DNA of 37,940 bases from Parachlorella kessleri (lineage: Eukaryota > Chlorophyta > Trebouxiophyceae > Chlorellales > Chlorellaceae). The number at the start of each line of letters is the position of its first letter. The stretch's first letter is position 1. The position numbers and the translations under genes are program-made. The stretch spans positions 1 through 37,940 of the forward strand of contig BBXU01001741.1 of NCBI GenBank assembly GCA_001598975.1, in the 5' to 3' direction. The notes under the pieces were generated by a model. The model saw only the letters and a program-made list of their open reading frames with translations. It was not told where the DNA came from and did not search any database. Positions 3,001 to 37,940 of the stretch are shown here, piece by piece.

Positions 3001-5697
3001 GGAGCCGCTCCATGAGCGCTGCCTCCACCTCCTCAGGGCTCTTCCCCCGCAGAGACTCCACACTGGGCCGGGGAGGGCGCAGCAGACCACCACCGACGCT
3101 GCCCCCACTGCTCCCGCCCAACTGCGGTCGATCTCGCTGTTGCACTTGCTGTGTTAGGTGGTGGTGGTGGTGGTGGTGCTGCTGCTGGGGCTGATATCCC
3201 CGCTGCTGCTGCTGCTGCTTCTGACTTGGCTGGTAGTGAGGGCAGTAGGGCTGGCTTAAAATGGGTGGGGGTGCATTCGGGAGACCCAGCAGAGCATCTG
3301 CCACACTCTCGTCCAGCCCTGCAATCACTGGAACATGCATGTCACAATGCGCAGCCACCAGACCCAGCAAAAAATACAGAACTCTGCATTCCTGGACAGT
3401 CCAGTAGCGCGGCACTAAACACTCACCCGCCTCGCCTTCCAGTTCCCTGCTGGAAATTTCTCCACTGACGTCTCGCACCGGGCTATGTAACAGTTTATGC
3501 ACCGCCAGCCAGCCCACCAGTCAGGCACCCTACCCTCCTTCCTAGCGATCGCCGAGCCGAAGTCCTTGGCTACCCTAACCCTTACCTGATAGCCAGGATG
3601 CCGGGGACTCAGCCCTCAAGGGCGCCTCACTGCCACTGTCAGCGGTTTCTGCGCCATCGACATCCATAGGCTGCCTTGCGTCCTCTTCACAAGCCATCCC
3701 GGGCTCTGCTGGAGGGTTTGCTGTAGCTGTCCCAGCTGCAGCAGCACCGTCCCGCTGCTGCTTCCTGCGACGGCTGCCCATTGGGGGGCTACTGCTGCCA
3801 AGGCTGTCGCCGCTGCCGGGCGCACCACCGGTCCGCGCCTGCTGAGTACCCAGTGCCACACTAGGCGTTGCAACAAAGCCTAGCTGCGCCTGCTCTGCCT
3901 GCTCCTCCTTCTTCAGAAAGCCGGCAGCAGGGCAGGCAGTTGGCAGCCCTACGCTAGGCCGCAGCGAGGACAGCAGGGCCAGCGGCTGCCTTACAGCTGC
4001 CTGTTCGGACTTGACTATGGGCACAGTGATCAGCGCCACAGGGGCCGGGTGCTCTGCCAGGCCAACGCCCTGCTGAGCCGTAAGCTGCTTTGCAGGCTCT
4101 GCCACGCTGGGGCCTTCCAGCATGCTGAGCTTCAGCCGCACTGGCTGAGCCTCATCTTCCTCATCCTCATTAAGCTCCAACTCCACTGACACCCGTTGTT
4201 TATCATTTGCTGCTGAGAGGGAGCCAGGTGGCAGCTCAAAGTTCATGACCAGCTGGGGCTCACCTGCAAGGCAGCAGAATTGCGGGACAAGCGTAAGTGG
4301 TGCTGGACCGACCAAGTATCATAATCACGTACGGCTGGCATATACATGCACCTGCTCCTACACCCACTCCACAGGATCCCACTCAACAGAATCCCCAGCT
4401 AGGCATGATATCCATGAACTTGGGCTGAAGATGCAAACCCCACAACACCAAAACCTCTAACATAGATCCATGCATGTTCCCTAGGACATCATGGCACCAA
4501 GCGCAGGTGGTATGGGGGGGACAAGCAAGCTCCCTAACCACCCGGCTCACTGTGTACTCTCTGCAGCGGCATGGCCACTGGTGGAGCCGGTTCTGCAACA
4601 ACCGTGCTGTCTTTTCGGGCAACGCCGCCCCGCTCTAGCAGCACTTCCAAGGCCACCGCGATTGCTGGGTTGCGAATGTTGGTCTGGCCCTTCCAGGTCA
4701 GGCGGCCCTGGTACCTGCAGGATCCATAAGGCGCCGCCGGAGCAGGTCAGCATGACCCAGTGGGTGGATGTGGCAGTGGGAGACAAAGTGTATGGCAGTT
4801 ACCCAGCAAGATGTTGCGCTTCAAACAAGTTTCCATATTCATCCCTGGTGAAATGATTCCAGCCGTCAGGCACTTGCCACGAATACTTGCACCAGGACCT
4901 GCCACATTTCAGTCTTGGTGACAGAGTTGCAATTTCAGTGACACCAACAGCGACAGTCACCCACCCAGCCTTCGCTTCATCGCACGTCGCTGCCCTGCTC
5001 TGCTGCGCCCCAGCTGTCCTCTCACCTGCCCTCCAGATCGCCGTCTGGCATAGACATGAGCAGCTCCGCCAGGTCAGGCACCGTCAGCTCGCTGTTCCAG
5101 GGAGCGCTGGGCTTGTGCACAGGCCCACGTGGCACCGGAGGTGGCAGCTCCCGCCGTGGCTTGCGGGTGTTGTGGGCCGAACCCCCTCCGTTAGTGCCGT
5201 CAGCTTGGCTGCTGCCGCGGGGTGCTGGGGGCGGGGCTGCTTCCAGCAGACCCAGGCCGCGGGCAACCTGCAAAGAGAGAGGAAGAAGATCGATTCCCAG
5301 AACATACAAATATAGTGTCAGTGTTCCCTGGTTCTTGATAGACCCTTGCAAAGCCCCTCCCCGGCCATCGCAGCGCCCCTAGTATTCCAAAGCGTCCCCT
5401 GGACGTTAGCCCAGGCATGAACGCCCATCGTGTGGCCAGCCCATCACCCCAACTGGGCGGCTGACTTACAAGGCTTGCCACTTGCAGCGCCAGCCGGCTG
5501 CAGCCACTCACCGCGACCTTGGAGCGGTACACCTCTCCCCCCGGCGCCCTAAACCACATGTCCACCGAGCCAGACCGCGACCCGGTCTCCCTCATCTGCG
5601 CCTTGCAGTGCCACTCGCCATCCAGCTTGCCTCCAAGTCCCTCTATGTACTCCCGCAGCTTGACCAGGCAATCCGCCGCTAAAGCCTGCACGCACAT
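1..5697 (-). CDS. Double methyl-CpG-binding-domain nuclear protein (3' end beyond window)
   Basis: Nine exons on the minus strand: 5697-5512, 5267-5026, 4714-4551, 4263-3586, 3318-2988, 2668-2598, 2386-2016, 1706-509 and 233 to the window edge. All junctions are GT-AG and phases agree, giving at least 1158 residues. Two MBD folds are visible. The first (about residues 20-75, exons 1-2) has GEWHCKAQMRETG, VDMWFRAPGG and YRSKVAVARGLG. The second (about 536-585, exons 6-7) has ELPPGWSVKASVRKSG joined by splicing to IDAYYYAPGGKRCKS. MBDs bind methylated CpG in DNA; the conserved Asp and first Arg are present in both, but the Arg of the usual FRSK motif is Lys in the second. The rest is low complexity: acidic EDEEDE, Gln and His runs (about 3150-3230), Ser/Gly/Asp-rich tracts, and basic KKKPRK and KRKRSKK signals near the edge, implying a nuclear location. 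The ATG at 5697 is the likely start, but the same place (TGCAG at 5690-5686) could be a splice acceptor, so an upstream exon is possible. Function beyond DNA reading is unknown. Confidence 0.82.
1850..2012. repeat. Imperfect tandem repeat in MBD-gene intron
   Basis: Two units of about 76 and 81 bp, each running from cagcct through ACAAATGTACTTTAAAACCC to the next cagcct (starts at 1850, 1926 and 2007). The second unit runs right up to the 5' splice site of the intron at 2015-1707. The units differ at a few bases and by a small insertion. Confidence 0.85.
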
Positions 5698-7489
5698 TGG
5701 TAGCAGGACCGCTCACTTGTTGCCCAGACAACTTGTCTAGACACCATGCCAACATCCGCAGACACAGCACAGGTTCTGTTCATACTCCCGGCAAAACCGC
5801 TGCTCCAGATTACAAAAGGTACGCCATGATGCTGATTCCAGCTCAGAGTGCTAAGCTAAATAGTACATAAAAACTGCTAAATGCCCTTTCAAGGTGAGGA
5901 CGGCGCACCGACGCCATGGCTGCTGCACGGTCTAAGTTGGAGGCCTGCTAACAATGCTTTTGGGTCCTCTCAGCTCCTGAGGAGGCTACATCCGCGCACA
6001 AGCCGTGCCTAGCGTGTTCACCCTGCAGGAGATACTGTGAGTATAAGTGAGGCTGGAGCTGGCCAAGCGAGCCCATTTACACCAGCAAACGTAAAGCAAG
6101 CAGCCCCCGGATGCTGCAAGGGCATCAGCTCCTTTGGCAACGCTAGGCAGAGGGTCTGCCACGTGGACATCCAGCTTTCCTGCCGCACCATAACAGGCTG
6201 CGAGAGGTCAAGGCGCGGCTAGGCACCAACGTTCATGACTAGGCAGAAGTGTCACAGCAGTCCTCCCTAACGACACCTGCAGCTGTCCCAGTGCTGCCCC
6301 AGTGGTTATGAACCAGCCTCAAGGCCTTGCAGGCAACAGAAAGCAGGTTTTGGGCTGTCGCTGGCCTCCCGCCTGCCCACCGCCCCGCCGCCTTGGCCGC
6401 AGCTGCCCCTGGCTGCTGCCCTGCTCACCAAGCGAAGCCCAAGTCGCCTTTACGCGGCCCTTAGGTAATAGATGGTCTCCTACGGTCCCGGCCGGGCCAC
6501 AGGGCGCCCGTCTAGGCAGCGGACAAAGTCAAGCTGCGCTGCAGCTGTACTCCTCTCGGCAGGGAGGTCCCGCAGTCGGTATCTGGACTAAGATCACACC
6601 AGAAAGGGCTGACAGCTCACAGCCAGTGTGAAATAAGCTGCACAGAGCAGAGATTCCAACGTCCGACTCCCAGGGGGTAGTCATCTGCTGGGGAACACGT
6701 CCTTAATCTTGTGCCCTGGGTTCAGCATTTAAATTTACCTGGGGATCAGCTGCATAAGAGGCAGTTTGGAGCCGAGACGAATTCCATGATGCGTACTTGG
6801 CGTGGAGATTTGTGTACTGCAAACATGTATTAGGGGGCGTTGAGTCGATGGGGGCATGGTCGCAAGTTCTGATCGAGTGCGTCAGCTGCTTTGCGTTTTT
6901 GCCTTCCACCCCAAGTTGTAGGTTATAGCAGGGCTGCGCCCCTGTTTTTGCGCCAGCGGAACCACACCATGTACCCTTGACACTGATTAGAGTCTTGGCA
7001 AGCCGCCAGAGTGACATTTCTCAGTGGTGCAAGACGTGCAACAGCCCCTTTTGTGCTGGCAGCAGTCAGCCACGTTACAGATGGGTTGAGGGCCAGCAGA
7101 ACCGCCGTGGTAGAACTGCACTGTTGTTGGTCTGGAGCTCACAGCCTGACAAGCAGCACACGACAACACCTTGGGTGCTCCCCACACGACCACCAGGCAG
7201 TGATGCTGTCACCGCCCTGGCTTCACAGGTGCCACACCAAGCAGAGGTTAAAAGAGGCGAGGGTGGACATCGGCAGCCACTGCCATGACGGCCATGATCG
7301 CCAGCGACATGGGATACCTGCAGCACCGTGGCGTGTAGTGGGGGCTTGCGTCGTCAACACTTTATACAAGCATATACAAACTCGTGCTAGCGTGCTGACC
7401 TGCCACGTGCATGCCAGTGGCCCTGAACAGGAATTTACCCCCCACCTTTGCCCCTCAGCCCTTTGCATCTCACTTCAATGTATACTGTC
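5698..7489. other. Gene-poor spacer upstream of the MBD gene
   Basis: No exon chain with matching phases or recognisable domain was found on either strand. Open frames here, such as 6302-6631 (plus) and 7017-6703 (minus), are low-complexity or featureless. The stretch should hold the 5' UTR and promoter of the minus-strand MBD gene, and possibly an undetected first exon of it. Nothing else can be supported. Confidence 0.5.
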
Positions 7490-8086
7490 TCAGCAGCAGC
7501 TGGTTTGAAGGCCAAGTCAGATGTAAAGCTCTGCTTTGACGGCCGTGCAGGAGCAGCAGCTGTAGGCGGCGGCCATGCAGAAGCAGCAGGAGCAGCCAGC
7601 ATGCCTGGGCCCTGCGATTATCTCTGTTTAACTAAAGTAGACTGGTAGTCAGAGCTTGTGGTGACTGGCATCGACTGATGGAAACTGAGAATGACACATG
7701 GGAGTTTGGGACCGGTATTGGTTAACATTCTAGACATACACACATTGCCACCGACCCATCGCCTTGATGCTGTCGGTTACTTCTGATAGGGAACATGACG
7801 CAAGACTGACTGGACCAGAGCCCAAGCAAGACCCAGAGCGTAACTGCCTTCCGCCCTGTCGGTCCAGATAGCCACTAGTTCTCCTCTCTTTGCACTGCCT
7901 GCATTTTTAGAAAGAACTGCCACCATTCACAAGAGCACTCTGCTGTCACTTGCCTTTTTTTTTAAACATCAACACGTCATACAACCTCCATGCTGGGCGT
8001 GCTGGCTTGCTTCATGCATATTAACTTACTAGTGCTGCTTCCAACGCCTGCTTTTATGAGTGAGGAAGAAGGAATTTTGGAGCATC

Positions 8087-11000
8087 ATGCTGCCAGCAGA
8101 CTTGGACTTCTGGACAGACAACAGCCGTGTCCCTCTCCTCAAGCTGGTGGCTCACGTGAAACTGGAGGCTGAGGCGGTCAGGTAACTCCTTGAACTTTCA
8201 CACGTGTGTGTAAAACAAACGCGCTGGGCCGCGCTCTTTGGGCCGCTGCCATTGCTTCCTTGGCTGCAATTTTGTCAAGCTGCCTGTGCCTGCAGCTGCA
8301 GAACCGAGGCTGCCATCCCAGCGAACCTCTGTGCCATCATTGGGGACTTGTCGCGTGCTCTCAGCCACCACAGCAAAACCCAGACACTTAGCGCAGTTCT
8401 GGCTCGGTGGCGCTGCTTTCAGCTGGGTACAGACTTGCAGCAGATATTCTGCAAAGGCAGCCTTCTGACATGCATTTGCACTACTGAGGCCATCAAGCAC
8501 CAGCACACACAGTTGCTGCCTTCCTTGTGGGTATTGGTGCGCTGGCAGACGCCCTGCCTGGGGCAACTGTTGACTATGCTGCACTGAAAAGGTTGGCACA
8601 TGTGCTGGACTGTGCCCTAGCTGAAGCAGAGGGCAGCCGTGAAGACCAGGGAGGTGAGAATTGCTACTGGATTTTGTTAGATATGCGGTATTATAGCGCA
8701 GAGAGGCAGAGGCGGCGCCAGGGCAGGCGCTGGGACTGGGAGTGAGTTGTAAGCATGATAATGCCTATCGTGGCGCAGGCATGAATGGCTGTTGACCATT
8801 GCAACAATGCTCACTGGCTGCGTCCGTACTTGCACTGAAAAACCGTGACTCTTTCGCCGTATGGGTGGAGCATGACGAAAGCAATAAGCTGACCTGCAGG
8901 GGCGGCCAATCTGCCAGTACTGCACCTCGTCCGCCTTAACTTTGTTACCATGGCTGGCATCATCATGGTCACCATGAACGGAGCAGAGCCGTGGGACCTG
9001 GCTCCAGCAAGCCCCGCCCTGGAACCGCTGCTACACCTGGCCCTGGGAGAGTTCAATGTAGCGTGCCGGCTGGCGACAGAACAGCGCACCAGCCTGCCTC
9101 AAGAGCATGCATGGCAGGCAGGAGTACCCCAGCTCAAAGGGGCACATGATAGGGCATGTTGTGCTGCCCTGCTGATTGAAGCCTTGCTGCCAATAGCAAC
9201 AGCTGCAGCTACCAAGGGCCACCTCAAGCTTGCAGCGATTGAAAGTCCCTACACCAGACCTTATCCAGGTGCGAGATAGACACCTGGTAGTGCACTGGCC
9301 AAATCGTGCTGCCGGGACGTGGGCGCCATGTTGAGCAGTAGGGGTTGTGTTTGCTGGGTAGTTCCCGGGAGGTGCCTGAACATCCCAGCCCCCAGGCCAG
9401 TTTATTGGGTAGGATAGCGGCAACTCCAATGCAGCGTATCCTGTAGTACCAAATGCTCCGGAGCTACACCAAAGTGCTGACCTATTGATCCTGGCTGCCG
9501 CAGTTGTTGGACAACTATGCTTACCTTGCCAGCCACCCCAGCAGCTCACACTTCAAGCTGCTCCACCTGGCAGTGTTTGGCCTCACTGGGCTGCTACTGT
9601 TGCAGCATAGATTGCTGTACCACACGTTGGTTACAAGCCCAAGCAAGGGGCATGAGCCAGCCATCATGGCGGCTTTGGAGCAGAGGATGTGGTGGGTGAG
9701 TGCAGGGGCAGCGTTTGCCAGAGTCCTGCATGCCGCAGCAGATGCGGCTGCCGACAGCGCCGGACATGGTCACGCCAATGAGACAGTAGTCGAGGCACTG
9801 CAGGGCCTCGACACCGCCCTTGGGCTCATTAGCGCCGTCTTTATTTGCTTTAAGACAGGCAGGGTCATAATCCAAGGCTGTCCAAGCCAGCTCCCAACAT
9901 TCGCCCAGCTGCCTGGCGTGGTAAAGCTTCTTCTGGAAGTTGCAGAGCTGCTGCTGCGGCTGACAGCCAAGCGACCAGCCCTGGACAAACTGGTTGATAC
10001 CAGTGAGCCTGCAGGAAGGTATAAAAAAGCGTCGCCTGCGCTTCTTTTGAAAGTTGCGTCCATGCTGGTTTTCGACCTGGGATGCCTGCCCTCACCCCAC
10101 CTTGACCAGCATTCAGAGCTCACAGGGCAGCTTTGGGTTGGAACTCAGAGCAACGCCAGCGTGAGTAGCAGTGCCAGCAGCAAGGACAATGCCTGTGGCA
10201 GAGCCGAACCCAGCTTTGGGGTTCCAACAGCAGAAGCTCTCCGGCGGAGGGTGGCCAGCCTTTCATGCACAGCAGCTAAGCTGGGGCGCTGCCTACCTGC
10301 CATGCCAGCAGTGAGTTCTGGTGAAGATTCTGAGATTTGCGGCAGGGATGGGAACTATGCGTTCCTGCTCGAGACTCTGACAGCGCATTGTTGTCAGGCT
10401 CTAGCCCTCGATCCATCCCCTGTAAGGGTCCGTGGCCCGCGGCGCTACCTAACTCAACACCTGCGGCATACGGGCTTCCTGGCCTTTGTATGCCTGCCAG
10501 CTCTAGCACAGGCTCATGGAGACCTTGTTTTCAAGGAGTTGGACAAGTTTCTAGGGAACAGGGGCATCACCGACTCAGTTGGCTGCCTATTGGTTGAGGT
10601 AAGCTACGGCATGTTTCATACTGCACGGGTACTGCCTGTGCCATTTTAGTGAATCGCGCCAACCCCATGCCTGGCAATAACAACCTTGTGGACAAGCCGT
10701 ACCATAATGTGTCTGAGCGCATGCCAGCTTTGTGAGCAGCAATACTTGCTATCAATAACGTGCTCATGGGGCCTCCATGCGAAATGCTTCCTGAAGTATG
10801 TCACCAACCCTGCCCACCATCACACTGCCAGGCCATCCTGTGCTCCGCAGGTGAGCCACCTTCGGCTGCTGAACGATGCTGAGAGGGGAGGTGGACTGGG
10901 CCCGCTGCTGAAGCACTACTTGGGCAACCTGCCGGTACGCTTCATTATGTTCCAGTTGGCTTATGCCAAGTTGGCCATAGCAACGCGTAATGAAACGTGT

Positions 11001-13715: not shown

Positions 13716-16700
13716 ATGACGCCAAGGGACTCGGACTACTTCAAGTCGGACTTTCTGACAGGCGTCAACACCGTTTCTCTCCATGCGCTGGTGACCTACG
13801 TTCAACTGGAGGCAGAAGCGGCCAGGTAGCTCCCTGAGCTCGCACAAACCCCGCCCTTGGCTCTGCTCCCTTGCTGCCTCAGCGGCAACTTTCAAGCTGC
13901 TGTGCCTGCAGAGCCGAGTCTGCCCTCCCTGAAAGCCTCGGTGCAGTTATTGGGCACTTGTCCCACGCTATAAGCCACCATAGTCGCAACAAAGCGCTTG
14001 AGGCCATCCTGGCTCGAAGCGCTGCTCCTGGCCTCGAGCTGGCCGCAGACTTGCAGCAAATATTCTGCGAAGGCAGCCTTCTGACACGCATTTGCACCGC
14101 TGAGGCCATCAGACACCAGCCACACACAGTGGGTGCCTTCCTTGATGGCATTGGAGCGCTGGCAGGCGCCTTGCCAAGGGCAACTGTGGACTACGCGGCA
14201 CTGACCAGCTTGGCGCATGCACTGGACTGTGCCCTGGCTGAAGCAGAGGGCAGTGAACAACAGGGAGGTGAGGAATCATTTGTTTTCTACTGTGTTTTGT
14301 GGATACGGGGCAAACTAGGGCAGGGAGGGGCCCCGGCTAAGCTGGGAATGACACTAAACAGTGGACATGATAGCAGGTATACGTATCACAGTGAAGTATG
14401 GCTAGCTTCTAGCTGTGCACTGGCTGCATCCGCATTCACACCGCAGTGGTGTGCCTCCTTTGTCACATCGGTGGAACATGACGAGACCACCCAGCCTGGT
14501 GTGCAGGGGCAGCAGAGCTCCCGGGGTTGCATCTCGTCCGCCTAACTTTTGTTAGCATGGCTGGCGTCATCCTGTCCACTGTCGAACATGCAAGGCTGTG
14601 GGGTCTGGGTCCGGCAAGCACTACCCTGGAAGTGTTGCTGCACCTGGCCATGGGCGAGCTCAGCGCAGCGTGCCAGCTGGTGACAGAGCAGCGCAGCAGC
14701 TTGGGACAAGTTTGGCAGGCAGCCCTACCCCAGCTTGATGTATCCGAGGTGGCACATGGTAGGGCACTCTGCGCCACCCGGCTTATGCGAGCACTTTTGC
14801 CACTGGCAAGGGTTGCAGCTACCATGGGCTACCTCAGCTTGCAGCGTTTGGTAGCCTCTACACCAGACCTCATCCAGGTGCGGGACGGAGTTTTACTGCT
14901 GAGCTGGTCAGATTTCTACGTTGCCACGATAAGATCTAGCTTGCTGGGTGCGAAGTCGGCAGAACGGGTTGTGTAGCTAATATATTCTGGAAGGTGCTTT
15001 CGTACCCCAGCATCCAAGCAGTTCTCGCAAGTATATGATTCCAAGAAACTCTGCACTTGCACATGCAGCATACATTGTGGGATTGCGATTACTCAGGAGC
15101 TACACCATATGTGCCGCCATCAAGGCATACTCATGCTGGCTGTTGCAGTACTTGGAGATTGATGCCTACCAAGCCAGCCAACCTAGCAGCCCGCACTCCA
15201 AGCTGCTTCACCTGGCAGTGTTTGGTCTCAGGGAGGCACTGCTGTTACAGCATTGTGTGCTGTACCACAAGGTCGTTGTACAACCATGCACGGCGTAGAT
15301 GCCAGCCATCATGGTCGCTCTGCAGCAGAGGATGCGGTGGGTCAGTGCAGCGGCAGCGTTTGCCAAAGTGCTGCATGCTGCAGCAGATGCGGCTGCCGGC
15401 AGCGCCAGCTGTGGTCTGGAAACCGACACGGTAGGCGAGGCAGTGCACGGCCTCGACACCGCCCTTGTGCTTGTTAGGGACGTCTTCTGCATCTGCTTTG
15501 GGACAGGCGGAAGGATAACGCAAGGCTGCTTAGGTGAGCGCCCAGCCTTCGCAGCTACATGGCGCGGTGGACCTTCTTCTGGATTTGGCAGAGCTGCTGC
15601 TGCGGCTGACAGCAAAGCGCCCAGCCCTTGATAGGCTACTGCATGCCAGTAAGCCTGCAGACAGGTGCCACAAAGCCTCTCCTGCGCTTATCCTGACAGT
15701 TGTGGCCATGCTGGTTAGTGACGTTGGATGCCTGCCCTCACTCCACCGTGAACAGCTCTTTGAGCAGACTGTGCGGCTTGGGGGTGGCATTGCCAGCAGA
15801 AGAGGCAATGCCAGCTTTTCCAGTGGCAGGTGCAGCTCCAGTCTCGGGCTTCCAGCAGCAGAAGCGTTCATGCGGAGGGTGGCCAACCTGTCATGCACAG
15901 CAGCTAAGCTGGGCCGCTGCCTGCCTGATATGCCGGCAGAAAGTGCTGGCCCAGATTGCGGGACGCAGGGAAGGGATGGAAGCTTCGTGCTCCTGTTAGA
16001 GGTTCTCACGGCGCTTGGCTGTCGGGCATTAGCGCTCAATCTTGTCCTGGCAGAAGCCCCTGGACCACAGCACGGCCTCACACAACGCCTGCGGCACATG
16101 GGCTTCCTGGCCTTTGTTTGCTTGCCAGCTCTAGCACAGGCTCACGGAGACCTCGGGTTCCAGGAGAGTGCCATATTTTTTGGGCACAGGGATATCACCA
16201 GCTCAGTCGGCCAGTTGCTAATTAAGGTAAGGTACCAGCCGCTTGATCGGGTGCCTTGTGTAAGGATCATATGTTGGGGACCACCTGCCAACCCTATGAC
16301 TGTCAGGGCATGGTATAAGGATGAAGGGTGCCATGCGTGCCAATGCGCAGCACATTGTAAGCAGCAGCAGCAGCTTAACTAGCTACTTAACAACTTGCTC
16401 ACTCCTCCGAAGTACAAGTCACACGAATACTTCATCCATTCCCGCTGCAAACTCTCGTCTGAATTGGTCCCCTGTGCTGGTAGGTGAGCCACCTGCAGCT
16501 GTTGAATGACGCTGTGAGGGGAGGTGGTCTGAGCCCACTGCTGAGCCACTTTTTGTACAACATGCTGGTAAGCTCCCTTGCGCTCCTGGTGCCTTCTGAT
16601 TCTACAACTTTCTGACATAGTGCCAAGCAAAAACCCATGACTGCCATAGAAAGGGCAGTGTAAGAAATGGTAGCATTCCCAACCATTCCTGCGTGCGGCT

Positions 16701-19049: not shown

Positions 19050-22000
19050 TCAGTGCTCCACCTGCTGCAGCCTACGCAGCTCCACCATGAGGTCAAACTC
19101 CTTGTCACTCAGCTCCACCAGCCGCCGCTCAAGCTCCACACGCCGAGCCAAGTCCTCATCTGCAGCAGGCAGCGAAGCAAGTATACCAGACCAGTGCCTC
19201 ACCACTTCACGAGCAGGTGGCCCTGGCGCGCAAGCAAGCAAGCCACAACATACTCACGTAAGCCATTTACGTACTTTTAAACAGTTATGCCAAAGGCACA
19301 GACAGCTGGCCTTGAGGAACAACGCCGTTGAGGCAACTCACCAAGTAAGGCAAATGGAAGCGATATCCCCAATCAATTACGTAGCTAGCACATGATAAGC
19401 CATCGCCAGCTTACCAAATACACCTGCTAATCCCTCAGGCATGAAGCTGCACTTTCAATGCACCCGTCCCCGCCACCTTGGCAGTCACTAACCTGTTAGG
19501 CCTGGGGCCTCCAGTTGTGTGATCTCAGCTTCGAGCAGCTGCTCCCGCCGCTCCAGCACCCCTAGCATCTCATTCAGCTCCTCCTCAAAGGCTAGCTGCA
19601 TGGGCAAGTCGGCAAGCGCTTGGGTATGCAACTGTCAAACCACGACCACCAGCAGGCTGTCCTCTTCCAAGAGGGGCCCAGGTGCAGGGCCCCGCAAGAC
19701 TGCGGACCGCTATGCTGCTGTGCTGGGGTTCATGATATGGACATGTCCCATCCCAGCCTCCGAATCGCGTCGTGCCACATCAACACTTTCATAGTTCCGC
19801 ACCTGCAGCCGCTGTGCCAGCCATGCCGGGTCGAAGGGCGCCGTCTGCGGCACCGGCTGCGCCGCGGCCATCGACTTGCGCTTTTTGCTGGGGAGGCCAG
19901 GGTGCAGCAGCGGTGCTGGCGGTGGCGGTGACGAGAGTGTGGGGCGCTCCCACTGCCGCCGAGAGCCGGGCATGGTGAGAATGTCAATCTTCTCGCACAG
20001 CACATAGTCATCCTGCGGTGATGAAATCCAGCATTTTACGGCAGCTATTCGGAGTGCACAAGTGCAAAGTTACAAGCCAGGGCTACAAACTCAAACGGTA
20101 CAGCAGCATAGGCAACTAACAGCAGCAGCGGAATGTGCTGACCATGTCGTTTCCTTGCCGAGGTTCAGTCACATGCCCACACTGCTGGCCCAATCCCTAT
20201 GTGGCGTTTATGCGCTTTTTGCAATGCTGCCTTCCCGGCCATCACCAGCCAAAGGCTTGCCGTCTGGACCACTTCTCTGCTTCAACCTACATTTCCTGAA
20301 GAGTATTCAAGTCTGGCCACATCTACACCTCAACTCACAGGGTTGATAAACTTGTAGTCAGACTCCATAGTCTCCTGCAGCCCTGACTCAGGATCCTGGT
20401 TGGGGTCGTACAAGATTGTGTACGTATCCATCTCTGCAGGAGAAACATAACCACGCACCTCGGTCAGCCAGGGAGCCACAATTGTTCATCATAGCCTGGC
20501 CCAGCAGTGGCTATACAGGAAGCTCTTTCTCTTTGATGCAGCGCCAAGTGGAGTGTGAGGTGCACCAACATAGGATGCTTGCGATAGACATCACAGATGG
20601 CTCCGGGACAGCGCTTTGCCGCAGGTACTTCACTTTTGACAAGGTTTCAGTGTGGATTCCAGATGGGGTGTTGCACCGGAGCAACAGCTTCAACGAGAGG
20701 AGCGAGTCCCACCTGCGTCATAGTCATACACCACGCCCTCCACCCAGGGCGGACTCTCGGATGGCCACAGTCGCCTGCATAGTAGAAGAAGCGACAGGGG
20801 GGGACGCTGTGAGACCGACTAGAAGACATGGCAGGGGTAAGTGGGCACAACAGCAGACCACCAGCCTTTCCATGTCCACTAGCCCGCCATTGCTGCAGAC
20901 CTGCCTCCGATTGCACCGCCTCCCAGCAACTTTGGAAGGCTGGCAATGGGCACCACCTTGCCAGTACAACATCAGCAACCTACTCATACCATTTCAGCCC
21001 AGCGCCAAAAGCACCAAGACAGCATTCTAACTGAATCGGCATAATGTTTTGTGTCTCACCAGACTCGCTTGCCCAGGTACCCGCGCGGGTCGCTCGCGCC
21101 CGTCAGGCTGGAGCTGCGTGGCCGCTGCCGCTGCCGCGTGCTGGCCGCCCGCACTGCAGACATAAGTTTAGAGGGTTGCCAGGGAGCTCCATTGCACGGT
21201 TCCCTTACATAGCTTCTGCTGTGGGGGTCACATTGCCTTGGCCAAGTAGTATTATATGAAAATGCGTGCAGCTCACCACAAGCCCCCATAAGCCTAGCCA
21301 AATGCTTAGGGCTCCCACCAGCCTCCTTGGCCTCACCAAAGCCGCCGTCACCTGCTCCCAAGTCGCCTGGAGAGCCCAGACCAGGTGCCCCCGGTCGCAC
21401 AGACGCCCGCCGCGCCAGACTCGGCTGGCTGAGCAACCCTCCGCTAGCCCTGCGCAGCAAACAAGGTGGCACTGCACTTTGCTACCAAGGGTCAGTGGGA
21501 GCCCTCCGCTCGCTCCGTTCTGCCCCAACCGAAGACCCTGGCAAGGACTTGTCCAGGGACACTGTTTAGCCAGATGTCGGCCGTTCCTCCTACGACCATT
21601 TCCCGCTGCCCAGGAGGCCTTCGGGTATTAAGGCAAGCAGCTTGCGCTGCCTGTCCATGGAGCAGCGGCCAGCAAGCTGCCTGCCCTCCATCTCGAGGCC
21701 AACAAAGCATGCCCCTGCCTCTTTGGTGCAGGCTTCGCAGCCTGCGCCCCCGCTTTGGTACTGCGGCCGGCACGCGTCGGCCGGCTCTCTACAGTCAGCT
21801 GGCCAGGCTCCTCCACCTCTGACCTTGAAGGATCTGAAGCCTGCCTAGACACTGGCAGGTCTTTGCACTAGAAGGGCAGGGTGCTCAGACGGCCTGCCAT
21901 TGCAGGCAGCCGACTGCACTGCCAATCGGAGTTTCTGTGGGCTTTTGGCGAGACGAAGCCTGTGCCATGAATCACGTGTTTTAAGAGAACCAAACTACCA

Positions 22001-32990: not shown

Positions 32991-32995
32991 ATATG
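32991..32995. repeat. Target-site duplication of DNA transposon, left
   Basis: ATATG immediately before CACTATG; it matches ATATG at 37933-37937 immediately after the right terminus. Confidence 0.75.
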
Positions 32996-33033
32996 CACTA
33001 TGAACGGCCGCCTAACAAATTACCCGTTTAGGG
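32996..33033 (+). repeat. Left terminal inverted repeat
   Basis: Heptamer CACTATG, 12 bp AACGGCCGCCTA, then ACAAATTAC and CCGTTTAGGG. It pairs with 37932-37895 on the minus strand. Confidence 0.85.
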
Positions 33034-33232
33034 GACTTAGGATTTTCGAGCAAAATGCTGCACGGCCACCATGGTAAACTACCCGATTTTTCCTCATAAG
33101 CCCCACATCTAACTTTACAGATGCCTTTGGCACATATAAATTGTAGAAATTGTAGATTCTGCCTGCTTTTTGACGCAGCTGGCACCCGCCACACTGCTGT
33201 CTGACCCCTTCTTGTCACTTGCATTTCCATCT

Positions 33233-33237
33233 TAAAT
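33233..33237. repeat. Target-site duplication of LTR element, left
   Basis: TAAAT directly before the 5' LTR, equal to 37353-37357. Confidence 0.9.
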
Positions 33238-33420
33238 TGTAGAAGGAGATTCCATCAAATCCCCGATTCGTGCTTTCTTGTAGATTTTCCCTGTCTGTAT
33301 GGTACTTAGTGTGTTGTCCATACTGTATCGAGGTCTGGAGGAGTGTATCTTGGCAGCAGTATCGAGGTGTAACAGGTCTCTGATCACGAAGTCGAGTCAG
33401 TGATTACCAGAGCTCCTACA
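33238..33420 (+). repeat. 5' LTR
   Basis: 183 bp, TGTAGAAGG to AGCTCCTACA. It differs from the 3' LTR only at 33379-33380 (TC versus GT). The repeat end TGTAGAA also occurs just after a TAAAT in the host element at 33137-33148. Confidence 0.95.
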
Positions 33421-33423
33421 TTT

Positions 33424-33439
33424 TGGTGTCGACAGCAGG
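33424..33439 (+). other. Candidate primer-binding site
   Basis: TGGTGTCGACAGCAGG lies three bases after the 5' LTR and begins TGG, which would pair with the CCA end of a tRNA. The tRNA was not identified. The site ends directly at the gag ATG. Confidence 0.5.
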
Positions 33440-33703
33440 ATGGAGGAAGCTCCCAAGCGCTGTGCATGGTGTAAGGGGCCACACCACTTTATGACTTGTG
33501 GCCGCCTGCCTGAGAACGCAAGGAAGGCAGTGGATAAGGACCCTGGGTTTAAGGGTTGCTTTTACTGCCTCTCCACTGAGCATGTTGTGGAGGACTGCGA
33601 TACCCGTGCACCGAATGATGTGACGGACCTGAAAGCGCTGCTGAAAGGAGTGGCACTCTCAGGCACTCTCAGGGACCTCCGAGTGTGCTGTTGTCTGAGC
33701 TAG
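33440..33703 (+). pseudogene. Gag remnant: nucleocapsid zinc knuckles only
   Basis: 87 codons starting 20 bp after the 5' LTR. Two Cys/His clusters are seen: CAWCKGPHHFMTC, an irregular knuckle, and CFYCLSTEHVVEDC, a standard CX2CX4HX4C knuckle. Knuckles bind the element RNA. A normal gag would have several hundred residues of matrix and capsid before them; here none is present, so an internal deletion from the leader to the nucleocapsid is likely. The frame then ends and pol continues in another frame, with an overlap of about 19 bp and a small repeat (GGCACTCTCA twice at about 33653-33672). Confidence 0.75.
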
Positions 33704-34185
33704 CAGTGCCACCAGGTGCAGATGAGCGCAACGTGGAGATTGCGCCACAAGCAGCTGAAGCTTACCTGGCACAGTTTGCAGACAGGCTGGTGGACAGTGT
33801 GCCATCACTGCCACCTCATCGTGGTGACATGGACTTCGAGTTCGATCTCATCCCTGGTGCTGAACCACCACAAGCTAAGCCTTACAGGCTGTCAGCTGTG
33901 GAGATCGCAGAGCTGCGCAAACAGCTGGCTGAGCTGGAAGCCAAAGGGTTCATCTATCCCTGTCACAGCCCTTACAGTTCGCCTGTTCTGTTTGTCAGGA
34001 AGAAGCCTTTGCCAACCCCTCAAGCTGCTGTGGGTTCTGCTGCCGCTGTGCAGCAGGAAGCTCCTAAGCCAGGAGGATTCCGGTTGTGCATTGACTATCG
34101 CGCTCTCAATCGAGCCTGCAGAACGTGCAAGTGGCCGGTGAAGAAGAAGAAGAAGAAGAAGAAAACTCGACAAGGAGTGACTTAG
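33685..34185 (+). pseudogene. Reverse transcriptase, N-terminal part
   Basis: Typical Ty3/gypsy pre-RT and RT fingers: SLPPHRGDMDFEFDLIPGA, KPYRLSAVEIAELRKQL, GFIYPCHSPYSSPVLFVRKK and GFRLCIDYRALN. There is no aspartic protease before it. After DYRALN the sequence leaves the family: a GAA/AAG triplet run (34139-34162) codes for lysines and a TAG follows at 34183-34185. The palm segment that should follow resumes only at about 34265 in another frame. Confidence 0.85.
34139..34162 (+). repeat. AAG triplet tract inside the reverse transcriptase
   Basis: About eight AAG/GAA units in a row, followed by roughly 100 bp of sequence unlike RT (34163-34265). This foreign-looking patch replaces the usual short link between DYRALN and the palm. 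Confidence 0.8.
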
Positions 34186-34264
34186 TTCGATCAGTACAAA
34201 GTGTACCGCTACACAATTGCACCGAAAGGAGGAATCGGTAACCCTAATAACCCCCCAATGACCG

Positions 34265-34592
34265 GTGCCTAACCCACTGACTTGCTTGGAAGCAGTAGCG
34301 GGAAAGGTCTGGTACTCGCGCCTTGATATGGCATCAGGGTATCACCAGCTCAGGATTGTAAATGGGCATGAAAAGTATACTGCGATGGTGACCCCGATTG
34401 GCCAGTTCTGTTGGCGTTGTTTGCCATTTGGCGTGGCTTCTGCGCCTGCACACTTTTGCTCTGTGCTGTCTCGTTGTTTGCAAGGTATGGAGGACGAAGT
34501 GACTGTGTTCTTTGATGACATCGCGATTCATACGATGACCCTGGAGCGCCACAAGGAAGTTTTAGCTGAGGTCTTCCGGCAGCCTGCGCGAG
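34265..34592 (+). pseudogene. Reverse transcriptase, palm with active site
   Basis: The family sequence resumes with VWYSRLDMASGYHQLRI, FCWRCLPFGVASAPAHF and VTVFFDDIAIH. FDDI at about 34509-34520 is the catalytic Asp pair (equivalent to YVDD). After HKEVLAEVFRQ the frame shifts near 34580-34592, and the family sequence (LREYGFYAKRSKCEFF) goes on in the next frame. Confidence 0.85.
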
Positions 34593-35546
34593 TATGGTTT
34601 CTATGCCAAGCGCAGCAAGTGTGAGTTCTTCAAGCACAGGATTCAGTTTCTGGGGCATGTAGTGTCTGTTGATGGCATTTCTGTAGAGCAGTCCAAGGTG
34701 AAGGTGATCCGGGAGTGGCAGCGCCCTAGTAGTGCTTCCCACGTCCGCAGCTTCCTGTCCGCTGTGGGCTGGTATCGCCGGTTCATGAAAGGGTTCCAAG
34801 GTATAGCAGTGCCATTGAACGCGCTGCTATGCAAGGATACTCCGTTCATCTGGACGCAGGACTGTGAAGAAGCATTTGAGCGCTTCAAGGAGGCGCTCTG
34901 TACCGCACCTGTGTTGCGGCAGCCGGACTTCACTAAGCCAATGGTGGTGCATTGTGATGCTTCCGATCTGGCTACAGGTGCAGTACTCATGCAGGACTTT
35001 GGGCCAGGCTTGCAGCCTCTTGCTTATGACAGCAAGGCTTTGTCTAAGTCGCAGCGCAATTGGTCCACTCATGACAAGGAGATGTACGCTGTGATGCGTG
35101 CGCTGGAAGTGTGGAATGTGTATCTGCGTGATTGCCCGACGACTATTCATTCTGATCATCATTCGCTGCAGTATTTCCTACGCAAGGACATTCCATTTGT
35201 CCCACGCCAGATCCGCTGGATGGAGAAGCTGGCTATGTATCCCAATGTACAGATTGTTTATGTGAAAGGTGCGGCCATTGTGGTTGCTGATGCTCTGAGC
35301 CGGCATGCGTTGAACCTTGCTGTTGCTCAGCTGACAGGTGTCGCCCTGGACGAGCTCTGGCCATCGGAGCAGTTAGCGGCTAATATAGCTGCGATGCAAG
35401 CTGAAATTGTGCCCACAGTGCTTCGCAGTGAGGACGTACTGCGGACCCAGGGATTGCATTCCCAAAGCCGTGCTGACTATGTCCGTGCTTATGTTGCTGA
35501 TTCTCTTGCAGCGGAGGCCCGATTGTCGCTTAAAGAACGACCCTGA
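34590..35546 (+). pseudogene. Reverse transcriptase thumb and RNase H
   Basis: RT thumb motifs FLGHVVSVDGI, VRSFLSAVGWYRRFMKGF and FIWTQDCEEAFERFKEAL come first. RNase H follows, with MVVHCDASDLATGAVLMQ (first catalytic Asp), YDSKALSKSQRNWSTHDKE (Glu), TIHSDHHSLQY (Asp) and VVADALSRH. The frame ends with TGA at 35544, while the integrase is read in the next frame from about 35530. Confidence 0.88.
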
Positions 35547-37038
35547 CACTATGTGGCGTGAGCAGCAGGGGCTGCTCTTCCGGAGGGAGAGAGAGGGAGA
35601 AGACTTCAAACTTTACGTTCCCTTGGCAGCTGGCCATGACAGTGCCCAACAAAATCGCCTTCGGATGGCTGTGATGAGTGAGTGCCACAATACGCCCTAT
35701 GCTGGTCACTTAGGCCGCGATCGCACGCTGGATAAAATCCGCCGCAACTTCTGGTGGCCTGGGTTGATCGGTGAAGTGACGGAGTTTGTGCGCACCTGTG
35801 AGGTTTGCCAGCAGACTAAGAGCCGGAACTACTTCCCTCTTGGAGAGTTGCGACCCTTGCCTGTACCGTCAAGGCCGTGGGCGACTGTGGGTATGGATTT
35901 CATTGGGCCTTTGCCAACTACTATCCATGGCAAGGATGGGATTATGGTTGTTACTGATCACTATACTAAGATGTGCCACTTTGTTGCCATTGAGATGACT
36001 TACACTGCGCCGCAGATTGCACGACTGTTTGCCCATTGTGTGTACAGGCTGCACGGCATGCCCACAACCATTGTGAGCGACAGGGACCCAAAGTTCACCT
36101 CCAGCTTCTGGAGAAACTTGTATCTGGTGCTGGGGACTAAGCTGGCGATGTCTACAGCTTACCATCCAGCCACTGACGGCCAGACAGAGCGTATGAACAG
36201 CGTGCTGGAGGAGATGCTAAGGGCCTTTGTAAATGAGAAACATTCTCAGCATGCTATGTGGGATGAGCTGCTGTGGGCGGCCGAGTTTGCATACAATGAT
36301 GCTGTGCATGCCAGTACTAAGCAGACGCCTTTCTACCTGAATTACGGGTTCCATCCACACACGCCTGCCAGCTTGTTGGCAGCCCAGCCGGCTAGTGGGA
36401 CGACTAACCCAGCTGCTGATGCCCATTTGGAAGAGATTCATGAAGCCTTGGCTGTAGCCAGAAGGGAGCTGGCGCGGGCCAAGCTGACCCAGAAGGAGTA
36501 TGCTGACAAGCGACGAACCAAGTACACCTTCAAGGTGGGTGACAAAGTTATGGTGGACACCCAGTGGATTGATGCAGCTCGGGCAGGCCGGACCCGTACT
36601 AAGCTGGATTTGCGTGCTGTTGGACCCTTGACCATTACTAAGGTCATCTCGCCGAATGCTGTGAAGCTGAACTTACCTGACTCATGGGGTATTCACCCTG
36701 TCATCAACATCAGCCGCTTAAGGCCTTACTTCAGCGGTGAGGAGCGTTTCCCAGGCCGACCCAGCCCACAGGCCATCAACTTGGTGGAGCCAGCACCCCC
36801 CAGGGATCTCCGGGAGGTGGACAGTATTGTGGGAGCTCGCAGAGGCGAAGGCCGTGTGCGGCAGTTGCTTGTGCGCTGGAAAGGTTTGGGCTTTGAGTAT
36901 GATGAGTATGTTGATGAGACTGAGCTGCTAGGCATCTTGGAGAAGCAGTTTGATGTTTCTGGCAAGAGAGCTATGACTGAGATGCGGAGGCTCAAGGCTA
37001 AGCTGTTTAAGGAGATCAAGTCTTTTGCCGATTACTGA
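35530..37038 (+). CDS. Integrase with C-terminal chromodomain
   Basis: One intact frame of about 500 codons ending TGA at 37036-37038. The zinc-binding HHCC domain has HNTPYAGH and CEVCQQTK. The DDE core has MDFIGPLPTT, IVSDRDPKF and GQTERMNSVLEE, so all three catalytic acids are present. A GPF/Y-type module follows (DLRAVGPLTITKVI, INISRLRPYF), then a chromodomain (VDSIVGARRGEGRVRQLL, VRWKGLGFEYDEYV). The chromodomain may steer integration to marked chromatin, as shown for other chromoviruses. The open frame extends upstream to 35407, but the first 40 or so codons are out of the family frame. Confidence 0.9.
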   Translation, partial: LKNDPDTMWREQQGLLFRREREGEDFKLYVPLAAGHDSAQQNRLRMAVMSECHNTPYAGHLGRDRTLDKIRRNFWWPGLIGEVTEFVRTCEVCQQTKSRNYFPLGELRPLPVPSRPWATVGMDFIGPLPTTIHGKDGIMVVTDHYTKMCHFVAIEMTYTAPQIARLFAHCVYRLHGMPTTIVSDRDPKFTSSFWRNLYLVLGTKLAMSTAYHPATDGQTERMNSVLEEMLRAFVNEKHSQHAMWDELLWAAEFAYNDAVHASTKQTPFYLNYGFHPHTPASLLAAQPASGTTNPAADAHLEEIHEALAVARRELARAKLTQKEYADKRRTKYTFKVGDKVMVDTQWIDAARAGRTRTKLDLRAVGPLTITKVISPNAVKLNLPDSWGIHPVINISRLRPYFSGEERFPGRPSPQAINLVEPAPPRDLREVDSIVGARRGEGRVRQLLVRWKGLGFEYDEYVDETELLGILEKQFDVSGKRAMTEMRRLKAKLFKEIKSFADY

Positions 37039-37153
37039 CCCTACGCCTCCACTCCAACATTTCCCACACCCTACAACCCATCCTATCTTACTATGCTTGC
37101 TATGTGTGGTTGTGCCTTGTGTTTTGAGTTGTAGGCTTGAGGTCAAGCCTTTT

Positions 37154-37165
37154 GAGAGGAGGAGG
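37154..37165 (+). other. Polypurine tract
   Basis: GAGAGGAGGAGG just before the 3' LTR, the normal place for plus-strand priming in LTR elements. Confidence 0.65.
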
Positions 37166-37169
37166 CTGT

Positions 37170-37352
37170 TGTAGAAGGAGATTCCATCAAATCCCCGATT
37201 CGTGCTTTCTTGTAGATTTTCCCTGTCTGTATGGTACTTAGTGTGTTGTCCATACTGTATCGAGGTCTGGAGGAGTGTATCTTGGCAGCAGTATCGAGGT
37301 GTAACAGGTCGTTGATCACGAAGTCGAGTCAGTGATTACCAGAGCTCCTACA
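37170..37352 (+). repeat. 3' LTR
   Basis: 183 bp, identical to the 5' LTR apart from two adjacent bases at 37311-37312. The TAAAT duplication follows it directly. Confidence 0.95.
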
Positions 37353-37357
37353 TAAAT
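37353..37357. repeat. Target-site duplication of LTR element, right
   Basis: TAAAT directly after the 3' LTR, equal to 33233-33237. Confidence 0.9.
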
Positions 37358-37894
37358 AAGCTGTTAACCGGCGGTACAGGGCTTGCGTCGCCACAAAAAG
37401 CAGCTCGATGCACCGTCGATCTGCGCGCCAATGTTTGCCCAAACCACTGCACGAAAGTTGCTCGGCCCTGAGAGAAAAACTTTCGTTAACATCGGAGGAA
37501 ACGAATGCCGCTATCCCGGCGCGCTGAGGAGGGCGGGGGGAGGACAGCAAGGCCAAAGTGTGCAAAACAGCTGTTTCTCCCGCTTGTTTTCGCGTTTCCT
37601 GAACCAAAACACCCCCATGAATGCCCCCTTTGAGGGCGGCATCCTCTAGAGTTTGGTCCTAGGAACCCACTGACCCGTCGGGGACCCTCCCGGAAGCAGT
37701 AGGCGCTGCAAACATTGGCGCGCCAGTAACGATCTGGACTTTGTATGGGGCCCCATACATTTCTGCCATCTAGTGCCTGGCACAGCTCCCTGGCATGTGC
37801 ATGGTAGAGCCCAGGCTTTTGGCCCAAGGTGGCCCACCCATAGGTAAGTCTTTGGACAAAGTTTGGGGCAAAAGTAAAGTTTCCCATACAAACT
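37358..37894. other. Inner right arm of the DNA transposon
   Basis: About 540 bp between the LTR element and the right inverted repeat. The open frames seen here, such as 37383-37649 (plus) and 37887-37486 (minus), show no transposase or other domain. It probably is the remnant body of a non-autonomous element. Confidence 0.5.
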
Positions 37895-37932
37895 CCCTAA
37901 ACGGCTTTTTTGTTAGGCGGCCGTTCATAGTG
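37895..37932 (-). repeat. Right terminal inverted repeat
   Basis: Read on the minus strand: CACTATG, 12 bp AACGGCCGCCTA, then ACAAAAAAG and CCGTTTAGGG. It differs from the left repeat at three positions, all in or next to the A-rich patch. Confidence 0.85.
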
Positions 37933-37937
37933 ATATG
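37933..37937. repeat. Target-site duplication of DNA transposon, right
   Basis: ATATG directly after CATAGTG; partner of 32991-32995. Confidence 0.75.
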
Positions 37938-37940
37938 GTG

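Follow-up and report, generated by a model that had tools for sequence, protein, structure and literature searches.

DNA transposons grouped in the CMCT clade (CACTA/EnSpm-Mirage-Chapaev-Transib and kin) carry CA..TG ends in most lineages, and their target-site duplications measure 2-5 bp (PMC12730594). Transposases of this clade are marked by C(2)C and H(3-4)H motifs located between the second D and the E. Transposition by Transib, RAG and ProtoRAG/RAG-like systems gives 5-bp duplications (PMC7204232, PMC8289069), which are GC-biased for Transib, RAG and ProtoRAG, and all aligned lancelet ProtoRAG ends begin with exactly CACTATG (PMC8289069). Published Transib elements come from protostomes, cnidarians, fungi and echinoderms (PMC7204232). 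Described here is a 721-bp DNA transposon with CACTATG ends and a 5-bp duplication from a green alga, Parachlorella kessleri. It is spread over positions 32996-37932 of the window, the 37,940-bp stretch of DNA that was analysed, which is the entire contig C959 of a genome of 50.86 Mb and 1,642 contigs that was searched for relatives.

Ends and target site of the 721-bp element

The element is real and non-autonomous, and it predates the two retroelement copies that lie within it. The left end, at 32996, opens CACTATGAACGGCCGCCTAACAAA, and the reverse complement from 37932 has the same first 24 bases, both by reading of the sequence and by script. The script gives an agreement between the inverted ends of 24/24 first bases and 35/40 overall, and BLAST aligns the left and right terminal inverted repeats over 38 bp at 92% (35/38 bp). 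The left repeat, heptamer first, lies at 32996-33033 on the plus strand and the right repeat at 37895-37932 on the minus strand, where it reads CACTATG, 12 bp, ACAAAAAAG. The heptamer is CACTATG at both termini, and the ends are of the CACTATGAACGG type. Directly outside them stand two identical copies of ATATG, at 32991-32995 and 37933-37937, of which the right copy falls in the last 8 bases of the contig and stops 3 bases before its end at 37940. No 3-bp duplication is present at the insertion (ATG on the left versus ATA on the right), nor is one of 2 or 4 bp. The assembly broke at the transposon edge, with the contig stopping 8 bases past 37932.

In 100 first-order resamplings of the window, with pairs taken at 60-8000 bp apart and with an exact 12-base seed, the best inverted pair reached 21/24 bases against 24/24 for the real pair, and 9 of the 100 contained any inverted pair of at least 20/24. 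The chance that two random window positions share a 5-bp flank is 0.0014 (400,000 draws), and among CACWATG pairs 50-15,000 bp apart in the window, only this pair is flanked by a 5-bp repeat. The CACTATG termini and perfect ATATG duplication reported in an earlier note on this DNA were thus confirmed by reading, script, BLAST and resampling. That note had taken the 4,937-bp interval 32996-37932 as one element, but it consists of three nested elements. Arithmetic subtraction of both retroelement insertions leaves 146 + 575 = 721 bp of DNA transposon, a residue that contains no recognisable transposase.

The interpretation preferred here, at a rough probability of 0.6, is that the 721 bp represent a non-autonomous cut-and-paste DNA transposon of the CMCT clade with a 5-bp stagger. 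The element has the CA..TG ends and a duplication within the 2-5 bp of that clade. It also has CACTATG at both ends, in agreement with the CACWATG termini by which the earlier note defined Transib (a definition not found in a paper), and it ends in the CACTA..TAGTG form of the CACTA/EnSpm termini (CACTA..TAGTG or CACTG..CAGTG). A DDE transposase supplied in trans would have bound the 38-bp ends and would presumably have cut next to the CAC of the heptamer, and insertion at a 5-bp staggered cut would have duplicated ATATG. Later, an LTR (long terminal repeat) retroelement would have inserted into the transposon, duplicating TAAAT, and a truncated non-LTR copy would then have landed on the left LTR border. 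The ends, the duplications and the nesting from which this sequence of events is drawn are all observed.

Related ends and transposases in the genome

Searches of the genome with the left end, the right part, the left interior and end patterns detected no second complete copy. The search for the 38-bp ends proposed in the earlier note returned an end on contig C254 and a double end on contig C511, but no complete copy, and hence no replicate filled sites at which the 5-bp length could be confirmed. With the right part of the element (37358-37932) as query at E<=10, matches are confined to the end itself, on C254 and in the element's left end, and to an 18-base stretch within the element. The C254 match, at 1359, is a single related end with 87% identity over 52-53 bp; the ORF (open reading frame) just upstream belongs to a gene that presumably resembles SF3A1. 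The C511 match agrees at 22/24 bases in a 24-base search, and two family-like ends are arranged there head to tail, at 20817 and 20840, 23 bp apart, possibly as a degenerate remnant. These two matches indicate that the end sequence occurs at other places in the genome. The stretch of C511 from 20817 to about 20885 (L011/L012) also features an inverted CTATGAAC partner and is bordered on either side by CTAGTCAC direct repeats.

Looser patterns were less informative. For a 22-base pattern and at most 3 mismatches, 16 matches compare with 17 for the reversed control, so that a match carries meaning only if its mismatches are few. For a 15-base pattern and at most 2 mismatches the counts are 58 and, in the control, 144, and the pair in the window is the sole inverted one to share a contig. 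When 30 of the 58 were extended, beyond the window ends only C254 continued like the family (18/25 further bases), the others agreeing at 12/25 or fewer; for C511:20840 the extension was made at the neighbouring end, 20817, so the evidence for that locus is the 24-base search. End matches in viral contigs (8 and 14 stretches) agree at no more than 11/25 bases beyond the pattern and were set aside as chance. No Transib relative was confirmed in viral contigs (104 pattern stretches) or in genome contigs (37), and genuine Transib DNA for comparison was thus lacking. In 75 stretches of this genome (277,538 bases with overlaps), a search for other elements with terminal inverted repeats returned only the given element, its shifted register and a CTG-repeat match.

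A transposase concealed within the interval was rejected on the ORFs scanned and on a Transib profile run on the residual DNA. The five ORFs scanned within 33440-37038 have LTR-retroelement matches or none, with no transposase among them. Three others fall entirely or in part within the residual DNA, and none of these has a Pfam match at E<=0.1. Neither the six-frame translation of 32996-33237 nor the residual DNA gave a match to the profile, which was built from 17 of 120 listed proteins, out of 1,183 matches. The same profile yielded only insignificant matches in the window and three contig stretches (best E 2.4), and nothing at E<=5 in the 75 stretches mentioned above. The RAG1 family PF12940 found no match in the genome at E<=10, in a search in which the control genomes were silent too and which had no positive-control genome; of two insect Transibs, the model scores one over its cut-off. 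The other, P0058, which it scores below cut-off, was itself used as a protein query and has no match in the genome. A full-length relative with the RAG1/Transib DDE core, which the earlier note had hoped for, was accordingly not found in these genome searches, although they are unable to prove the absence of a Transib/RAG1 enzyme. A tnp2-type transposase, as in CACTA/EnSpm, was looked for with the EnSpm family PF02992, which likewise has no match in the genome, with the controls also silent. Neither of the results that the earlier note named as contrary to Transib, namely a full-length relative encoding an EnSpm/CACTA or other transposase, or duplications of 2-4 bp in other copies, was seen.

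The sole CMCT-clade transposase seen in this genome is a Plavaka-like gene on the minus strand of contig C1489, where PF18759 matches over its cut-off at 7198-7599 (E 9.4e-7) and again at 6617-6751 (E 3.5e-4); this family also matched 1 of 14 control genomes, below cut-off. A by-eye reading of ORFs gives the gene a wider extent of 3585-8139 (L031). Ends of the CACTATG kind were not found around it. A 14-bp inverted pair opening CACTGACAG (5545 and 15485) was rejected as a pair of Plavaka ends because its flanks are unmatched and one arm lies inside the presumed gene, and among 29 weak inverted pairs, the best of them 12/16 with 4 bp, none is convincing. When the exons, roughly joined, served as a protein query, none of the best 7,996 word-sharing candidates matched at E<=0.001.

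Possible origins of the ends

Among known families, the ends fit Transib/RAG-like elements best, since CACTATG with 5 bp suits them better than it does CACTA elements, with 3 bp; this is kinship suggested by signature and not proof. The similarity to Transib comprises heptamer-like CAC ends, symmetric inverted repeats (PMC8289069) and the 5-bp duplication, whereas the AT-rich duplication, the green algal host and the failure to find a transposase are differences. The Transib-like signature that the earlier note described therefore stands as regards its two traits, but the searches for copies, for a relative and for a transposase did not establish membership. Lancelet ProtoRAG shares the exact heptamer and the duplication length, but its ends are asymmetric with a conserved block GCCATCTTG (PMC8289069), which is not seen in the 40-46 bases examined per end here, and the present element lacks RAG1L and RAG2L genes. 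Because the termini also begin CACTA, only the duplication length, at one site, separates Transib from CACTA/EnSpm.

Several observations weigh against a CMCT transposon with a 5-bp stagger, or against Transib in particular. The length of 5 bp comes from a single site with no replicate, and the right-hand ATATG lies where the assembly deserves least trust. The stretches of C511 and C254 that were examined yielded no partner end flanked by a 4-9-bp duplication, barring two ACTG matches at C254, the ends of which are unlike the family. No transposase was found at the loci with these ends, which, together with the AT-rich duplication, argues against Transib. With 1/5 G/C, ATATG does not show the GC bias described for Transib, RAG and ProtoRAG sites, although this is one site, and the bias is a population property of sites and not a defining requirement.

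A narrower form of the preferred interpretation, with a likelihood that is part of that given above, is that the element is a true Transib, moved by a Transib transposase whose DDE core is RAG1-like and whose gene green algae have or once had. This is a tentative proposal and on balance a somewhat unlikely one; as between a true Transib and a CMCT enzyme of algae, not yet described, that cuts with a 5-bp stagger, the chances are estimated as roughly even. The joint presence of a CACTATG-type heptamer and a 5-bp duplication, both described Transib/RAG-like traits, speaks for a true Transib, as does the layout of the right end, where the ACAAAAAAG that follows the heptamer and 12 bp agrees at 7/9 with the nonamer of the recombination signal sequence (RSS) printed in PMC8289069; the left end agrees at 6/9 with the same spacing. 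The background per window position is 0.13% for at least 7/9 and 0.92% for at least 6/9. However, this spacing was noticed after the fact and in two ends that are not independent, and most Transibs have little or no nonamer similarity (PMC8289069), so an RSS-like spacing does not characterise Transib. Nor is the duplication GC-rich, and neither the RAG1 family, nor an insect Transib protein, nor the Transib profile gave a significant match. It is quite improbable that green algae harbour, or recently harboured, a transposase of the RAG/Transib lineage acting on symmetric 12-RSS-like ends (CACTATG, a 12-bp spacer and the A-rich ACAAAAAAG).

Outside the preferred interpretation, the ends might belong to a CACTA/EnSpm or Plavaka-like element in which a real duplication of 3 bp (or 2 bp) has mutated and the 5-bp match is coincidental. 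This is unlikely, as it requires both a chance match (0.0014) and a mutated flank at the same site, although the CACTA...TAGTG ends are the CACTA motif and the inverted repeat, at under 50 bp, is as in CACTA elements, for which repeats mostly <50 bp and 3-bp duplications are described (PMC10741241), as opposed to 5 bp at the single site here. Another green alga, Auxenochlorella, is reported to have EnSpm-Plavaka elements (PMC12636532, the main text of which gives no duplication length), Plavaka is placed with CMCT (PMC12730594), and the C1489 gene shows that a Plavaka-like transposase is present in this genome. Against this, no such ends surround that gene, the EnSpm search was negative with silent controls, and the element matches neither of the fungal Plavaka end types, which are TGT..ACA or CATCA..TGATG with 2-3-bp duplications (PMC12730594). 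An element from outside the CMCT clade, for example from the hAT5 group, which likewise makes 5-bp duplications, is very improbable. To our knowledge CACTATG ends are not a hAT signature, and no search aimed at hAT transposases was made; hAT families with 5-bp duplications do exist (PMC12730594, citing Repbase reports). Least probable of all is an artefact of assembly or chance that brought two unrelated family ends together near a contig end: the right end and its duplication do fall within the last 46 bases of the contig, but the inverted repeats match, the duplications match, and the TAAAT of the nested LTR element is consistent across the interval.

If the element is a true Transib, the RAG1-related family would reach the green lineage, which bears on its age and on its horizontal spread; the extent of horizontal transfer in the Transib/RAG1 family has been called uncertain (PMC7204232). 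No report of a green algal Transib appears among the titles and abstract beginnings of open-access literature on Transib with algae or with the motif. Should 5-bp duplications with CACTATG ends instead be the work of an algal CMCT enzyme, this signature by itself would not justify a call of Transib in algae or plants. If the 12-RSS-like reading is true, a RAG-type recombination system would exist outside animals and fungi, which would suggest that the heptamer-spacer-nonamer layout could predate RAG2-bearing elements or arise apart from them.

Nested retroelements and window genes

The last five bases of the left part of the DNA transposon (32996-33141) are the TAAAT into which the LTR element originally inserted (33137-33141), and the other copy of this duplication, at 37353-37357, precedes the right part. 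Between them, the LTR retroelement at 33238-37352 is of Ty3/gypsy type, with an interrupted frame and with LTRs of 183 bp (33238-33420 and 37170-37352; TGTAGA...CCTACA) that differ at 2/183 bases. Its ORFs match RVT_1, RT_RNaseH_2, RT_RNaseH, Integrase_H2C2 and SH3_Tf2-1 over cut-off, and the integrase core and chromodomain below cut-off, so it is perhaps chromodomain-bearing. The two LTR differences suggest a young element, and a GAAGAAG-rich stretch with TAACCCTAATAACCCCCC lies near 34141-34265.

The copy at 33156-33237 belongs to an abundant repeat, with at least 41 other matches at 94-100% identity (40 of 616 first-look candidates scored). All 9 other copies that were read terminate in CATCTT, with AAA next to it, and for 7 of them the bases after CATCTT recur up to 70 bases upstream, at varying distances, as border direct repeats; in the remaining copies, L060 and L064, no direct repeat is visible in the part printed. 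The repeat thus behaves as 5'-truncated non-LTR copies do, and represents the 3' end of a non-LTR retrotransposon or SINE (short interspersed element) family. Its final bases, TAAAT, open the repeated target AAATTGTAGA. The 33142-33155 segment, as read from TAAATTGTAGAAATTGTAG, probably consists of the opening bases of the original LTR, together with filler where the truncated insert has its 5' junction. The repeated target includes the first LTR bases. We infer that the DNA transposon was in place before either retroelement, and that the LTR element inserted earlier than the non-LTR copy.

The assignment to a chlorophyte in the earlier note is borne out by the window ORF at 9504-10649, which over 44% of its length shares 99% identity with a protein of P. 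kessleri (N2152v2), a member of the Trebouxiophyceae; the matches listed for this ORF are two, both from P. kessleri. By eye it is similar to the ORF at 15534-16382, and the two are apparently paralogues. The second P. kessleri match carries PF01753, which we take to be the MYND zinc finger.

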